Assembly: GCA_026387475.1 (NCBI GenBank)
Contig: JAPLLN010000050.1
Coordinates: 1-38,608 of the forward strand
Length of the DNA: 38,608 nucleotides
Source of the DNA: Candidatus Omnitrophota bacterium
Lineage (GTDB): Bacteria; Omnitrophota; Gorgyraeia; Gygaellales; Profunditerraquicolaceae
Reading direction: 5' to 3'
The position numbers and the translations under genes were made by a program. Positions 3,889 to 14,125 of this stretch are shown here, piece by piece (the stretch's first letter is position 1; every line of letters begins with the position of its first letter). The notes beneath the pieces are model-generated. The model saw only the letters and a list, made by a program, of their open reading frames with translations. It was not told the origin of the DNA and ran no database searches.

Positions 3889-4314
3889 TTATTTACCTTT
3901 TCTTATCTTGGTTACCAGCTTCACAATACCGTCTATCATCGCCTCCGGACGGGGTGGACAACCCGGGATATAGAGATCGACCGGTAAAATTTTATCTAAC
4001 GGTTCGCATACATTGTAACTATCCCTGAACATGTGGCGGGATAACGCGCACTGGCCCACCGCTACTACCACGCAGGGTTTAGGCGCCTGTTCGTATATTT
4101 TTTTCATACGCGGCACGCTCTTTCTATTCATCGCCCCGGTGATCAAAATGGCGTCGGCGTGGCGCACGGAACCTATCAATTGGATCCCGAATCTCTCTAC
4201 ATCAAAGCGGGGAGTAAATAGATCGAGTATCTCGATATCGCAGTTATTGCAGGAACCCGCGCTTACGTGAAAGACCCAGATCGATTTAGTCAGTGCTTTT
4301 ATTTTTAAACTCAT
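3889..4314 (-). CDS. NuoB/HycG-like hydrogenase small subunit
   Basis: 4Fe-4S ligands SCNNCD, GQCAL, PGCPPRPEA. Confidence 0.92.
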   Translation of the reverse strand: MSLKIKALTKSIWVFHVSAGSCNNCDIEILDLFTPRFDVERFGIQLIGSVRHADAILITGAMNRKSVPRMKKIYEQAPKPCVVVAVGQCALSRHMFRDSYNVCEPLDKILPVDLYIPGCPPRPEAMIDGIVKLVTKIRKGK

Positions 4315-7694: not shown

Positions 7695-8822
7695 TTAACT
7701 CATCGACTTGCGGAACCTTAAAGTGCTGAAACCTATGACCATCAACCCCATAAAGAACAACGGGACCAGCTGGATCCAGAGGATATCGATGCCTGACCCC
7801 TTCAAGAATATACTGCGGATGACCACCATAAAATAACGCAGAGGATTAATGAACGTAAACCACTGGATGACCTGCGGCATATTCGCGATAGGGTAGGCAA
7901 ACCCCGATAAAAGCACGGTCGGCATGTAAAAAAGGAATACCGACATCATTGCTTCCTGCTGGGTCGATGATACCGTAGAGATAAACAACCCTATGCCTAA
8001 AGTAGTGAACAAATAAATGCAAGTCGAAAAAAGCAAAAGAAACAGGTTGCCTCTCAAGGGAAGATGGAACCAAAGAACGCCCAGAATGGTGATCAGGGTT
8101 ATCTGTATAAGGGCTATGACTCCGAAAGGCATAAGTTTTCCTATGATAAGTTCTATCGGTTTAATGGGGCTTACAGTCAACTGCTCCATTGTCCCGATCT
8201 CTTTCTCTTTTACTATAGCCATAGCCGAAAGCAATAAAGACATCATAGTCACGATGGTCGCGATGACCCCGGGTAGATAATAATTTCGCGAAATAAGGTT
8301 TCCGTTAAACCAGGCGCGATCCCGCAGATCAACGCTGGGCACGTTGCTGATCTTGCCGGTTGCCAGCGCTTCATTCTTACTAAGCTCCTGCTGGTAATTT
8401 TCTATAATTGTGCCGGCGTAACCCATGACGATCATCGCGGTGTTGGAGTCTGTGCCGTCAAAGGTAAGCTGAACCGCGGCGTCTTTGCCTGCCTCGAGGT
8501 TGCGGCCGAAACCGCGGTCGATGTGTATTACAACGCTGGTGACACCCCTATCAAGAAGCTTGGTCTGCTCTCTCTCGCTGCTGATGAAATGCTCGGGGAC
8601 AAAATACTTAGAATAGGTAAACCTGCGCAAGAGTTCCCTGCTCTCCGAGGTATTATCCCGGTCAAAGACCGCGGTCGGCACATAATTAATATCTTTATTC
8701 GCAGCATACCCAAAGAGGATTATCTGAAGCAGGGGTGTTATAAAGATGACCGTCTTCATCCTCGGGTCGCGGAAGATCTGCTTAAATTCCTTTATCAGAA
8801 TCGCCCTGATCCTTTCAAACAT
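7695..8822 (-). CDS. ABC-2 type transporter permease (YbhR/YbhS-like)
   Basis: Six-TM ABC-2 architecture; KEIGTMEQLTVSPIKPIELIIGKLMPF. Confidence 0.92.
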   Translation of the reverse strand: MFERIRAILIKEFKQIFRDPRMKTVIFITPLLQIILFGYAANKDINYVPTAVFDRDNTSESRELLRRFTYSKYFVPEHFISSEREQTKLLDRGVTSVVIHIDRGFGRNLEAGKDAAVQLTFDGTDSNTAMIVMGYAGTIIENYQQELSKNEALATGKISNVPSVDLRDRAWFNGNLISRNYYLPGVIATIVTMMSLLLSAMAIVKEKEIGTMEQLTVSPIKPIELIIGKLMPFGVIALIQITLITILGVLWFHLPLRGNLFLLLFSTCIYLFTTLGIGLFISTVSSTQQEAMMSVFLFYMPTVLLSGFAYPIANMPQVIQWFTFINPLRYFMVVIRSIFLKGSGIDILWIQLVPLFFMGLMVIGFSTLRFRKSMS

Positions 8823-8823
8823 C

Positions 8824-9966
8824 TTAAGCCACCCTCTTTTTGAATCTTTTTATCGCCAGGCCCAGCATAAGAAATGCGAAAAGGAAGAGAAAAAGCGTCT
8901 CATCCCACATAGCGCTCATCCCCGCGCCCTTTAAGAAACAATTCCGCAAGATCACGATATAATAGCGCGCCGGGATAAAATAAGTAACGGCCTGGACGAA
9001 TTTAGGCATATTAAATATCGGATAAATAAACCCGGAGAGAAGAATGGTCGGTATCATCGTAGTCAGGCTTGCCAGCTGGCTTGCCATCAATTGGGAGCGG
9101 GCTACTACGGAGATATATATGCCCTGGCTCAATGCGCCGGTTAAGAAAAGCGCGCTTAAAAATAAAAGCATCAGATAGCTGCCCCTGAAAGGCACTCCAA
9201 AAAGAAATCTGGCCATTATCAAACCGACGATGAGATCAAAAAATCCGATGGCAAAATAAGGAAGGAATTTACCGATTATCAACTCCGGGCCTTTTACCGG
9301 GGTGGAGATGAGTTGCTCCATCGTCCCCCTCTCCCACTCCCTGGCAATGCATATCGAAGAAAGAAGGGCTACGATGATCATAATGATCATGGCGATGACC
9401 CCGGGGATGATAAACCAGGTGCTCACCAGGCCCATGTTATACCAGATCCTGGAGCGCGCATCGATTGTAGGCGGCGGATTAAGTCCGTGACCGGCGAAAT
9501 CATTGTTTATCAGGTCAATATTGTACTTTGCGACTACCGACCTGACATAACCCATAGCGATAGTAGCGGTGTTGGCATCGCTTCCGTCTACGATCAGTTG
9601 CAGAGGCGCGGCCTTTCCGCTTTCGATATAATGCGAGAAGTCTTTAGGTATAATCATGGCCATCAAGACATCTCCCTTATTGATCTTTCTTTCTATATCC
9701 CGGTAATTATCCGTGTATGAAACGATATTGAAATATTTGGAGTTCTCGAAATTGCGCATAAAATCGCGGCTGATCTTTGATGAAGCGTCCTGATTCCAAA
9801 CTACGGTGCGCACATGGTCGATATCCAGCGAGAGCCCGTAACCGAAAATAAGGAGCAGAAATATGGGAATACCCAAAGCCAGCGCCAGCGACCGGGGGTC
9901 GCGCTTGATCTGGATGAATTCTTTTAAGGCTATTGCCTTAATTCTTTTTAAGCTCTGCGCGGTCAT
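8824..9966 (-). CDS. ABC-2 type transporter permease (YbhR/YbhS-like)
   Basis: WERGTMEQLISTPVKGPELIIGKFLPY; paralogous to the adjacent permease. Confidence 0.92.
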   Translation of the reverse strand: MTAQSLKRIKAIALKEFIQIKRDPRSLALALGIPIFLLLIFGYGLSLDIDHVRTVVWNQDASSKISRDFMRNFENSKYFNIVSYTDNYRDIERKINKGDVLMAMIIPKDFSHYIESGKAAPLQLIVDGSDANTATIAMGYVRSVVAKYNIDLINNDFAGHGLNPPPTIDARSRIWYNMGLVSTWFIIPGVIAMIIMIIVALLSSICIAREWERGTMEQLISTPVKGPELIIGKFLPYFAIGFFDLIVGLIMARFLFGVPFRGSYLMLLFLSALFLTGALSQGIYISVVARSQLMASQLASLTTMIPTILLSGFIYPIFNMPKFVQAVTYFIPARYYIVILRNCFLKGAGMSAMWDETLFLFLFAFLMLGLAIKRFKKRVA

Positions 9967-10903
9967 ATTCTTCTATCGAAGAGACAAATACGTCTTCCAG
10001 TGAAGGAAGTATTTTATTTACGCTGAAATCCTTTGCCCCTTCTTTATTTAAAAAATCGCTTATAAGTGGGACTGCTTTTACGCTGTCATAAACTACGGCG
10101 TGGATATTCGCCCCGAATAACGCCGCTTCCTTTACGCCGTCGATCTTTCTTATCCTATCCAACCAGCTTTGGGCCTCGGCGAGTTGGATCTCCAACACCT
10201 GGTTCTTCATCCCCGTTGTCTTCATCTCCTGGGGCGTACCCTGGGCGATTATGGTGCCGTGATAGATCAGCACCATGCGGTTGCAGTTCTCCGCCTCATC
10301 CATATAATGCGTGGTCACAAATACCGTCACGCCTTGAGCCGCAAGGCCTTTGATGATACTCCAAAAGTTTTGCCGCGTGATCGGGTCTACGCCCGACGTA
10401 GGCTCATCAAGAAAGATTATCTTTGGTTTATGTAAGAGCGCGCAACCTAAAGCCAATCGCTGTTTCCAGCCTCCGGCCAGAGTGGCGGTAACCTTATCCC
10501 CCATCCCCTCTAAACCCGCGATCGTTAAAGTAGCTTCAAAGCGCTCTTTTCTCTCCTGACGCGGTATCTTGTATATCCCGCTGTAGAAATCAATATTCTC
10601 CCCGACCGTAAGGTCGTTATAGAGAGAAAACTTTTGCGACATATATCCGATATGCTCTTTTATCTTATGCTGCTCTTTGATAATATCAAAACCTCCGACT
10701 TTACCTTCCCCTGAAGTCGGCGGGATTATACCGCAAAGCATCCTGATAGTAGTGGATTTTCCCGCGCCGTTCGGCCCTAAGAAACCGAAGATCTCGCCTT
10801 GGGCCACCTGGAAATTTATTTTATTCACCGCGGTGAAATTCCCGAATTTCTTTTCCAGGCCCTGAACGCTTACCGCTATATTATTGACCGTCTCTACTGT
10901 CAT
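9938..10903 (-). CDS. ABC transporter ATP-binding protein
   Basis: Walker A GPNGAGKST; signature-like ATLAGGWKQRLALG; Walker B IIFLDEPTSGVDP. Confidence 0.95.
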   Translation of the reverse strand: MTVETVNNIAVSVQGLEKKFGNFTAVNKINFQVAQGEIFGFLGPNGAGKSTTIRMLCGIIPPTSGEGKVGGFDIIKEQHKIKEHIGYMSQKFSLYNDLTVGENIDFYSGIYKIPRQERKERFEATLTIAGLEGMGDKVTATLAGGWKQRLALGCALLHKPKIIFLDEPTSGVDPITRQNFWSIIKGLAAQGVTVFVTTHYMDEAENCNRMVLIYHGTIIAQGTPQEMKTTGMKNQVLEIQLAEAQSWLDRIRKIDGVKEAALFGANIHAVVYDSVKAVPLISDFLNKEGAKDFSVNKILPSLEDVFVSSIEEYDRAELKKN

Positions 10904-11621
10904 ATTCTTTTATTATGGTAACAAATGCCTCTTCTAAAGTTTTAGCGTTGAATTCTTTCTTGATTTCACCAGGAGTGGCGCAACGCAGGAGTTTCCCTTT
11001 ATGAATAAGCCCCACCCTGCCGCAGCGCTCCGCCTCATCGAGATAACATGTGGAACAGAAAATAGTGACCTTTTCTTTAAGTAATTCGTAGAGTATTCCC
11101 CAGAAATCCCGGCGCGAGACCGGGTCAACGCCGTTAGTCGGCTCATCTAAAAATAAAACTTTGGGGGTATGTATCAACGCGCAGGCAAGGCCTAATTTCT
11201 GTTTCATCCCGCCGGAGAGTTTGCCCGCAAAACGCTCTTTAAACGGCAGAAGCCCGGAGAAACCCAGCAGCCGTTCGATAGCCTCGGGGCGCTTATCTTT
11301 TGCCACACCGTAAACATCGGCGTAGAAATTGATATTCTCTAAAACGCTTAATTCTTCATAGAGCCCGAAGCGCTGGGACATATAGGCAATATGTTCTTTC
11401 AGGGGTTCGGACTCTTTTACGGTGTGTTTATTGTAGACCCAGGCCTGGCCTGCGGTAGGATTCATTATTCCGGTCAAGAGGCGCATAGTGGTAGTCTTTC
11501 CCGCGCCGTCCGGCCCGACTAACCCGAAGATCTCCCCCTCCTGAACCTCAAGGTTAAGTTGGTCGAGGGCAGTCAATTCCCCGAATTTACGGGTAAGGTT
11601 CTCGGTCTTTATGGTAACCAT
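10881..11621 (-). CDS. ABC transporter ATP-binding protein
   Basis: GPDGAGKTT, LSGGMKQKLGLA, VLFLDEPTNGVDP. Confidence 0.95.
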   Translation of the reverse strand: MVTIKTENLTRKFGELTALDQLNLEVQEGEIFGLVGPDGAGKTTTMRLLTGIMNPTAGQAWVYNKHTVKESEPLKEHIAYMSQRFGLYEELSVLENINFYADVYGVAKDKRPEAIERLLGFSGLLPFKERFAGKLSGGMKQKLGLACALIHTPKVLFLDEPTNGVDPVSRRDFWGILYELLKEKVTIFCSTCYLDEAERCGRVGLIHKGKLLRCATPGEIKKEFNAKTLEEAFVTIIKEYDSRDGQ

Positions 11622-11630
11622 GGAAATTAG

Positions 11631-12473
11631 TTATTCAATTTCTATGTAAGCGTCAGCGGGCATCCCGGGCTTTAAGTCCAGACTGGAATTATCAGCCCTG
11701 ACTTTTATTCTGTAGACGTACTTCACCCTCTCTTCGGTAGTCTGGATGTATTTGGGCGTGAATTCGGTTTCACTGGATATGAATGAGACCCGGCCTTTGT
11801 ATTTTTTGTGCGGGTAGGTATCGGTCATGATGTACGCCGGTTGGTTAAGTTTTACCCGGCCGAGGTCCTTTTCGTTGATATACGCGGTGACCCAGATATT
11901 ATTCAAATCCACCGCGGTAAATACCGGAGCGCCCGGCTGCACCACTTCTCCGGCGAGGGCACTCTTTACCAGAACAAAACCATTCAGTTGAGAAGTTAAA
12001 TCCGTAAAGCCTAAACGGGTCCTGGCCAGATCAAGAGAAGCCCTGGCCTGCTCCATATTCGCGCGGCTGGAATCAGCTTTAGTCTTGGCGGTATCGCGCT
12101 GCTGGGCGGATATAGCGCCTGCTTTATAAAGATTCTCGGCGCGCTCATAATCGACCTTATCCAGCGCGTACTGGTATTCATCCGCCCTTAACGCAGCCTC
12201 GTCTTCGGCCACGACCTTAGAGAGCTCGTCGGTATTAAGCCTTGCCACCACATCCCCGACCTTGATCACCTTTCCTTCATCGGTAAGAAGCTCGGTTATC
12301 TGGCCGTTGACCCGGAAAGAAAGGCGCACGTCATCCCCCTCCATATTGCCGGAGACCTTGATCACCTTTACGTTACGCCTCTCCTTCAGGATGATATACG
12401 CGGAAACACCCGCGGCGATCAGGGCTGCGATCACGATTAGAAATACGGGTTTAATTTTTAGCTTTATTTTCAT
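11631..12473 (-). CDS. HlyD/YbhG-family membrane fusion protein
   Basis: N-terminal TM anchor, long helical hairpin, barrel-sandwich region GFVLVKSALAGEVVQPGAPVF. Confidence 0.92.
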   Translation of the reverse strand: MKIKLKIKPVFLIVIAALIAAGVSAYIILKERRNVKVIKVSGNMEGDDVRLSFRVNGQITELLTDEGKVIKVGDVVARLNTDELSKVVAEDEAALRADEYQYALDKVDYERAENLYKAGAISAQQRDTAKTKADSSRANMEQARASLDLARTRLGFTDLTSQLNGFVLVKSALAGEVVQPGAPVFTAVDLNNIWVTAYINEKDLGRVKLNQPAYIMTDTYPHKKYKGRVSFISSETEFTPKYIQTTEERVKYVYRIKVRADNSSLDLKPGMPADAYIEIE

Positions 12474-14049
12474 TTTTATTCTCCTTTAAGACTTGCGTGC
12501 CCATGCTCCGTTCAAGACTGGCTCTAGCCATGATATAATCGTAAGTCCCCGACGCCAGATTCTGCTCTACCTGCGCCAAGGCTACCTCCGAATCCAAGAC
12601 ATCAAGATTTATTCCTACCCCGCTGATATACCTGACCTCGGAGATCTTTAACGCCTCTTTTGCCTCCGCGATATTATCTTTCTGGGAATCGATCACCGTC
12701 TGCGCTTCTTTCATATTAAGCACTGCCTGTTTTACGTCTACGGCGACCTGGTCGGAAACATTGTCTTTGCTGATGAGCGCCTGGGAATACCTGGCCTTGG
12801 CCGCGTCTACCCTGGATTTGGTCAAGAATCCGTCGAATATAGGCACTGTCACCGCTACCCCGACATCCCAATTATTGTGCCGGTTATTAAATATATTTGC
12901 CAGATTGCCCGATCTGTAAGAAAAATCCGCGCTACCCTCAACTTGAGGGAGCCATCCCGAGCGCGCGTACTTGATCCCCCATTTGCTGATGTCTATGCCC
13001 AAAGACTTAACTATCATTTCCGGCTTGTTAAGGTAGGCTACTTTCAGGAATTCGCTTTCTTTTATTTCTATCGGAATATGGCGCAACCGGTCTTCTATCC
13101 TTAAATCCGCGCTCTGTTTAAAGGCAAGTAGTTTCTTTAATTCGGCTTTGATCAGATCAACCGCGTTATCCGCCTGGATCAATTGCGGCATTAATAATGA
13201 TACCTGCACCTTGGACTGTAAAAGGTCGAACCTTGAAGATGTGCCGCGTTCGTACCTGTTCTTTACTTCCAGGAAATGGGCCTTAGCCTGGCCTAAAAGT
13301 TGTTGGGCAATGCGTTGATTCTCATACGCAAATAGGAGGCCGTAATAAAGCCTCTTGGTCTCGAATTCCACATCCAGCTTTTTGGCGCGCAGGCCTTCTT
13401 CCTGGCTCTTAAAGGTAAGTTGTTTCTGCCTAAGGCTAGAGATATTTGCCCCGCCGCTGTAAATCGTTTGCGTTGCGTTTACACCGACCTGGTTATCGTT
13501 CTTGTACCCGGCGAAGACTCCGTAATCTTTACTCGAACTTAACGCTGAAGTGGCAGTAGGTACAGCGGCCCGGCGGGTATAGCTTGCCTGGGCATTTACA
13601 TCCGGCAGGAAGGCGCTGCGCGCGCCTATTATGTCAGCCCGGGCTGCCTCCACTTCTTTCTCCTGGATCTGGATATCTTTATTATTTTTGTAGGCGACGC
13701 GCACGGCATCGGTAAGGGAAGTAAAGACTAAAGACTCGGAAGCATTCTCGGCGCAGAAAGCGATTTGCGCAAAGAAACAGATAAGGAATAAGATTAAAGC
13801 GGATTGTTTTGAGATGATGCTTTTTAATTCGTTGTAAATGGGATAGGATTTGTTGACTTTGAAAAATCTGGCGTTGGCCCGGTACTCGCTAGTCAAGACC
13901 CCTTCCTTTTCAAGGTTGTTCAGGGTCTTTTGGAATACTCCGGGTTTTTTTCTTAAGAGGCGGCCGAGCTCCTGCATATAAAAAGCGCGCTCGCTTTGAG
14001 TAAAGAAGAGCTTTAAAAGGCGGGTCTTGTTTTTAGTCAGCTGCAGCAT
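12451..14049 (-). CDS. Winged-helix DNA-binding domain fused to TolC-family outer-membrane efflux protein
   Basis: Residues ~1-80 wHTH (FYMQELGRLLRKKPGVFQKTLNNLEKEGVLTSEYRANARFFKVNKSYPIYNELKSII), then signal-peptide-like SALILFLICFFAQIAFCAENA, then TolC repeats; one uninterrupted 532-codon frame. Confidence 0.88.
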   Translation of the reverse strand: MLQLTKNKTRLLKLFFTQSERAFYMQELGRLLRKKPGVFQKTLNNLEKEGVLTSEYRANARFFKVNKSYPIYNELKSIISKQSALILFLICFFAQIAFCAENASESLVFTSLTDAVRVAYKNNKDIQIQEKEVEAARADIIGARSAFLPDVNAQASYTRRAAVPTATSALSSSKDYGVFAGYKNDNQVGVNATQTIYSGGANISSLRQKQLTFKSQEEGLRAKKLDVEFETKRLYYGLLFAYENQRIAQQLLGQAKAHFLEVKNRYERGTSSRFDLLQSKVQVSLLMPQLIQADNAVDLIKAELKKLLAFKQSADLRIEDRLRHIPIEIKESEFLKVAYLNKPEMIVKSLGIDISKWGIKYARSGWLPQVEGSADFSYRSGNLANIFNNRHNNWDVGVAVTVPIFDGFLTKSRVDAAKARYSQALISKDNVSDQVAVDVKQAVLNMKEAQTVIDSQKDNIAEAKEALKISEVRYISGVGINLDVLDSEVALAQVEQNLASGTYDYIMARASLERSMGTQVLKENKNENKAKN

Positions 14050-14056
14050 ATCCCTC

Positions 14057-14117
14057 TGTATGTTTTAAGCATACAATCGTATGTTTTACGGATACAATTA
14101 TATGCTTAAGGCATACA
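14057..14117. promoter_or_regulatory. Three 19-bp imperfect palindromic operators at exact 21-bp spacing
   Basis: Minus strand: TGTATGCCTTAAGCATATA (14117-14099), TGTATCCGTAAAACATACG (14096-14078), TGTATGCTTAAAACATACA (14075-14057). Confidence 0.85.
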
Positions 14118-14125
14118 GAAGTCAA
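14097..14125 (-). promoter_or_regulatory. Sigma70-type promoter TTGACT-N17-TATAAT of the efflux operon
   Basis: Minus strand TTGACTTCTGTATGCCTTAAGCATATAAT; the spacer is filled by one of the palindromes. Confidence 0.8.

Follow-up and report, generated by a model that had tools for sequence, protein, structure and literature searches.

Organization of the locus

The window analysed here, a stretch of 38,608 nucleotides from a MAG of Candidatus Omnitrophota, carries an operon for a YbhGFSR-like ABC efflux pump (Table 1). Its first gene opens with the ATG at 14049 and continues to 12451 through 532 codons without any internal stop, and its product is a genuine fusion of a winged-helix (wHTH) domain, a signal peptide and a full TolC/OEP channel. 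The initial annotation had described this single frame joining a wHTH to TolC without giving its strand, which is the minus strand.

Table 1. Features of the fusion gene, its promoter region and the downstream pump genes
Feature	Position	Strand	Remarks
wHTH-signal peptide-TolC fusion gene	12451-14049	-	532 aa; heads the operon; frame also open in homologues
Predicted winged-helix DNA-binding domain, residues 1-81	13807-14049	-	AF2 topology, Foldseek, homology to wHTH-nucleotidyltransferases, purifying selection
Recognition-helix motif KPGVFQ, residues 35-40	within 13807-14049	-	
Predicted internal signal peptide QSALILFLICFFAQIAFC, residues 82-99	13753-13806	-	Rule-based prediction; hydrophobicity and small -1 residue
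Mature TolC/OEP outer-membrane channel, residues 100-532	12454-13752	-	PF02321 (two matches), TIGR01844, Foldseek to OprM/TolC
HlyD/YbhG-like periplasmic adaptor	11631-12473	-	PF16576/PF13437; overlaps the end of the fusion gene
ABC ATPase 1	10881-11621	-	PF00005; conserved order
ABC ATPase 2	9938-10903	-	PF00005; conserved order
ABC-2 permease 1	8824-9966	-	PF12698; conserved order
ABC-2 permease 2	7695-8822	-	PF12698; conserved order
Predicted sigma70-like promoter	14097-14125	-	TTGACT 14125-14120, 17 bp, TATAAT 14102-14097; from sequence; layout shared by all 14 loci examined
Predicted operator site 1, GTATGCCTTAAGCATAT	14100-14116	-	In the -35/-10 spacer, overlapping the -10
Predicted operator site 2, GTATCCGTAAAACATAC	14079-14095	-	About at the expected transcription start
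Predicted operator site 3, GTATGCTTAAAACATAC	14058-14074	-	In the 5' leader

The fusion is the only channel gene of this complete pump operon, whose genes overlap or nearly touch, so that the whole pump should fall silent once the first promoter is repressed. The order of the pump genes is the same in genomes with fused and unfused channels, as far as the contigs reach. The gene preceding the fusion is YqeY, and there is no separate TetR (CecR) regulator at the locus. The unfused orthologous operons are devoid of this wHTH; one of them (G004) has a TetR gene directly upstream of TolC, and another (G025) has PadR- and AbrB-like genes upstream. From this arrangement, the wHTH fusion appears to occupy the regulatory place of a separate regulator. 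The G025 locus (L060) also holds a second, divergent TolC gene just upstream of the unfused operon, with the PadR-/AbrB-like genes before it.

Domains of the fusion protein

The Pfam search, a check proposed in the initial annotation, yielded no model above its cut-off for residues 1-99; the C-terminal part (about four fifths of the protein) matched PF02321 with two OEP repeats (E 3e-67). The channel part also matched TIGR01844 with an E value of 5e-49, under that model's own cut-off. Foldseek aligned the modelled channel with OprM, TolC and VceC (E 1e-5 to 1e-4, probability 1.00, TM about 0.3-0.4), the underlying AF2 model being of low confidence (pTM 0.44).

Residues 1-81 are homologous to the wHTH part of a family of wHTH-nucleotidyltransferase proteins, most of which, unlike the fusion, end in a nucleotidyltransferase domain and not in an OEP. 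The AF2 model of the fusion (pLDDT about 70-80 in this region) shows three helices followed by a two-strand wing and then a long helix continuing into the signal peptide (H6-17/H25-32/H40-48/E52-57/E60-65/H72-99); a separate model of the wHTH alone was poor (pLDDT 54) and was left unused. Comparisons with PDB profiles gave weak matches to wHTH regulators of the MarR/ArsR type, as did Foldseek with MarR/ArsR-type repressors, and no Pfam match to Trans_reg_C (the OmpR-type wHTH) was found in the protein. Homology and modelled topology identify residues 1-81 as a predicted wHTH domain.

The signal peptide was assigned by rules. In all 28 homologues with a complete N-terminus, the predicted signal stretch exceeds every other 11-mer of the protein in hydrophobicity, and the residue at -1 of the predicted cleavage site is small. 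The stretch is followed by an AXA-like site, which by the same rules lies at C99|A100 in the protein of the window. A role of Cys99 as a lipoprotein residue was considered and rejected, as it is preceded by Phe and is replaced by A, G or S in relatives; signal peptidase I therefore fits better. A signal peptidase I was found in six relatives and gave no match in the MAG of the window, which is 82% complete and does encode an RseP-family protease. These features are compatible with export and cleavage that would leave an active stub behind.

Conservation of the fused reading frame

The same uninterrupted frame is present in at least 29 genomes, found among the relatives and GTDB genomes, that belong to 18 genera of three families, all of them Omnitrophota; 28 have a complete N-terminus and one begins at a contig edge. 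These homologues share ancestry, and statistics drawn from them are not independent trials. Judged from these sequences, the conservation of the open frame is far beyond chance. With respect to same-genus G001, the wHTH exhibits 12 synonymous and no non-synonymous changes, and the TolC part shows a dN/dS of 0.05; by these counts, the wHTH and the channel part are both under purifying selection.

An assembly join or a frameshift would be conceivable in a window that comes from an incomplete MAG, the more so as one relative (G190) has a frame break at this place. However, separate assemblies from 18 genera hold the identical uninterrupted frame, with no indel splitting it into two ORFs, and in no relative examined do this wHTH and TolC appear as separate adjacent intact genes. 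An artefact of this kind has next to no probability. Another explanation is that two products are made: a channel whose translation mostly begins inside the frame, at TTG52 or some other codon, and a full-length chain that is only a regulator. The window does contain TTG52, and in many homologues a start-like codon falls within the final 30 codons of the wHTH. Nevertheless, the scarcity of in-frame starts before the signal that had been pointed out for this gene is borne out, since residues 2-115 hold only ATG25 and TTG52, and the position of TTG52 is start-like in only 6 of the 28 homologues, being TTA in G001. Start positions are scattered, and five of the 28 have no ATG, GTG or TTG at all across the 39 codons ahead of the signal core. 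The whole chain must in those cases be translated from the wHTH start, which, on this codon evidence, is the only possible origin of the channel in at least some members. We regard a two-product arrangement as quite improbable.

Three relatives carry altered versions of the gene. In G001 (L033/L045, 990-3248), the fusion frame continues into the HlyD adaptor to give a wHTH-TolC-HlyD protein of about 753 aa in which the end of TolC and the start of the adaptor are absent, by either a real deletion or an assembly error. In G051 (L061/L044), wHTH, signal peptide and operator array are intact and TolC ends after about 35 mature residues, followed by a phosphofructokinase-like ORF. In G190 (L102/L158), the wHTH does not differ from that of a fused relative, and the array is still present; TolC is decayed, the frame stops about five residues past the wHTH, and the pump operon is not nearby. 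The persistence of wHTH and array in G051 and G190 despite the loss of TolC suggests that the wHTH may be able to function without export.

A predicted operator array in the promoter of the fusion gene

Upstream of the fusion ATG (14058-14116) lie three predicted operator palindromes (GTATGC-N5-GCATAC) at intervals of 21 bp, an array that the initial annotation had missed. Site 1 falls within the -35/-10 spacer and overlaps the -10 at all 14 loci examined. In a relaxed test, which allowed sites of 16-18 bp and steps of 20-22 bp, arrays were found before all 28 complete fusions, each scoring above all of its 400 dinucleotide shuffles; the sequences tested had also supplied the consensus, and the shuffles were scored in the identical way. 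By the same test, arrays were absent upstream of the four unfused orthologues scored (G008 was left out). Because sites of 16 bp and steps of 20 bp occur in some members, a stricter test that fixed the site at 17 bp and the step at 21 bp attained p = 0.003 for no more than about half of the 28.

The tandem array occurs nowhere else in the genome of the window, in which a second close copy of the fusion's wHTH was not found either. An isolated palindrome-like sequence, GTATATTTTTTTCATAC, is located at 4093-4109 of the window, outside any array, and is probably due to chance. In G031 (L056/L107), two extra palindromes are present upstream of the promoter beside the usual three, five in all.

Predicted operators of the wHTH family

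The wHTH family to which residues 1-81 belong is found in 141 of 334 Omnitrophota genomes, where its usual partner is an MNT-type nucleotidyltransferase (PF01909/PF18765), TolC being the partner in the present group. According to a survey of upstream regions (loci L111, L112, L115, L062-L071 and L121-L157), most genes of this family bear palindromes on their own promoters, the sequence of which varies with the recognition helix. PGxFQ helices accompany TATGC/GCATA, GNLSR accompanies GTTGTA/TACAAC, VSMIRK accompanies TGTAAT/ATTACA, AGTIRR accompanies GAGTAC, and TIHREL accompanies GTTCTC. When the partner is not TolC, two or more TATGC/GCATA half-sites are present in 7 of 9 wHTH genes with a PGxFQ helix and in 0 of the 40 whose helix is different (Fisher p 4e-7, a value that relatedness makes too small). 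In four cases (L136, L139, L140 and L156), the same type of wHTH is joined to a zeta-toxin-like P-loop kinase, with a PF06414 match on L136, and these genes also carry palindromes on their own promoters.

In these sequence pairings, the operator class follows the recognition helix of the DNA-binding domain and not the fusion partner, and the palindromes of the wHTH-nucleotidyltransferase family of the Omnitrophota amount to a natural operator code. Since the operator class follows the wHTH whatever its partner, the wHTH fused to TolC would be a working DNA binder at its own promoter. This match between operator and helix is the strongest evidence for the predicted own-promoter binding, and across the family it supplies predictions of binding that are ready for use. 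In 92% of bootstrap trees, the TolC-type wHTHs cluster together within the PGxFQ wHTH-nucleotidyltransferases, which suggests one fusion event; the tree of the TolC domain leaves the ancestral status of the unfused orthologues unsettled.

Proposed mechanism

We consider it probable that the protein is synthesized as a precursor composed of a wHTH autorepressor, a cleavable Sec signal and a TolC channel, and that the stub cut from it represses its own YbhGFSR-like operon. Translation of the full chain from the wHTH start is supported by the codon comparisons, and the predicted binding of the wHTH to the three-palindrome array is strongly supported by comparison among the homologues. The position of the operators implies that this binding would repress the operon, and the fused wHTH is most likely a dedicated autorepressor of the efflux operon.

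According to this proposal, the signal peptide would insert as the wHTH folds in the cytosol, signal peptidase I would cut after residue 99, and the channel would proceed to the outer membrane. Left behind for each channel chain would be a cytosol-facing wHTH-signal-peptide stub of roughly 99 residues, either held at the inner membrane or freed by RseP-type cleavage of the signal peptide; RseP is reported to cut signal peptides, that of E. coli TolC included (Saito 2011, cited in PMC9360617). The stub, which would probably persist after export and may respond to it, would bind the three palindromes as a dimer and shut the pump operon. With one stub per channel chain, repressor dose would equal channel synthesis in a 1:1 feedback. 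Such a tie had been suggested for this gene before, and it is well supported, as autorepression, by the conserved frame and arrays, the purifying selection and the lack of a conserved internal start. A coupling of repression to secretion is plausible.

More tentatively, export itself may be the signal, with cleavage and then either RseP-type release or loss of the stub setting the level of active wHTH; we hold this to be possible rather than probable. If so, the operon would read the channels delivered across the inner membrane, and a signal peptide headed by a DNA-binding domain would act as a counter of secretion flux. Export may either raise or lower repression: a long-lived stub would count delivered channels, and a short-lived one would leave the unexported precursor as the repressor.

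A reading based on the latter case, in which the unexported precursor represses and the wHTH is lost when the stub decays after cleavage, would make the system a sensor of export failure and not a counter of delivered channels. An intact cytosolic wHTH would be present before export, and in the AF2 model the helix 72-99 joins the wHTH to the signal peptide without a linker, so that membrane insertion could alter the geometry of the dimer. Furthermore, signal peptide remnants are normally degraded (PMC9360617), a fate that could destroy the repressor and that counts against the stub model. However, the same sequence data fit the stub model equally, and we judge this reading unlikely. The protein might also be a one-component regulator that, like ToxR and CadC, stays uncut and anchored in the membrane, with the TolC part as a periplasmic sensor instead of a channel, as an N-terminal wHTH, a single transmembrane stretch and a periplasmic C-terminal part would allow. 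Against this, the C-terminal part is an entire OEP, strongly conserved and subject to purifying selection, and comes from the sole channel gene of a complete pump operon, and the predicted cleavage site has its small residue throughout the homologues, which makes an uncut regulator very improbable. The precursor that leaves a repressing stub behind is the reading that we prefer.

As a rule, efflux pumps are controlled by ligand-sensing repressors that are separate proteins. In the fusion, a single chain comprises both repressor and channel, so that their amounts cannot be uncoupled at synthesis. The signal peptide would carry a working DNA-binding domain, and the fusion is a compact system in which to ask whether an outer-membrane protein, through its export, can act directly back on the transcription of its gene.

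Comparison with known systems

No published account of a wHTH-TolC fusion was found in the open-access literature searched. As far as could be checked, the component parts are of known kinds and their union in one exported precursor is new.

ToxR and CadC hold an OmpR-type wHTH at the N-terminus, followed by one membrane segment and a C-terminal part across the membrane. The fusion shares this layout with them; nevertheless, its wHTH shows no Trans_reg_C match, and the chain of ToxR and CadC is not cut into an exported channel. Also comparable are the wHTH-nucleotidyltransferases of the Omnitrophota, which share the homologous wHTH, an equal operator class for an equal recognition helix, and arrays with 20-21-bp steps on their own promoters, and differ in bearing a C-terminal nucleotidyltransferase (in four cases a zeta-toxin-like kinase) in place of an exported channel. 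The antitoxin AbiEi represses its operon with an N-terminal wHTH that binds inverted repeats overlying the operon's promoter (PMC3985639). This resembles the autorepression proposed for the fusion; AbiEi belongs, however, to a separate two-gene toxin-antitoxin system without a signal peptide.

The E. coli YbhGFSR ABC efflux operon is controlled by a separate TetR regulator, YbiH/CecR (PMC7190983). Both operons comprise an adaptor, ABC ATPase, two ABC-2 permeases and a dedicated local regulator, and the E. coli pump is thought to pair with a TolC-type channel. In E. coli, however, the TetR gene is separate and TolC is encoded elsewhere, whereas in the window an unrelated wHTH is fused to the channel; the operon of the window has two ATPase genes and otherwise corresponds to the YbhGFSR-type make-up.

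Regarding the export step, autotransporters are Sec-exported outer-membrane proteins whose N-terminal part ahead of the signal core is unusually long; unlike in the fusion, no folded DNA-binding domain is described for these long signal sequences (PMC2805444). In the RsiV/sigmaV system, signal peptidase and then site-2 protease cut RsiV, thereby controlling transcription (PMC9044953). RsiV shares with the fusion, for which cleavage is predicted, a cytosolic regulatory domain ahead of a signal-peptidase site; it is an anti-sigma factor with a lysozyme-binding sensor, in contrast to a DNA-binding domain placed before an outer-membrane channel. In iRhom2, the signal peptidase complex frees an N-terminal cytosolic fragment that alters transcription (PMC7618786), a parallel to the proposed stub, although iRhom2 is a eukaryotic rhomboid-like pseudoprotease that acts via partners such as CtBPs and not as a wHTH repressor of its own operon. 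RsiV and iRhom2 together show that proteins whose cytosolic N-terminus has a regulatory role can be substrates of signal peptidase.
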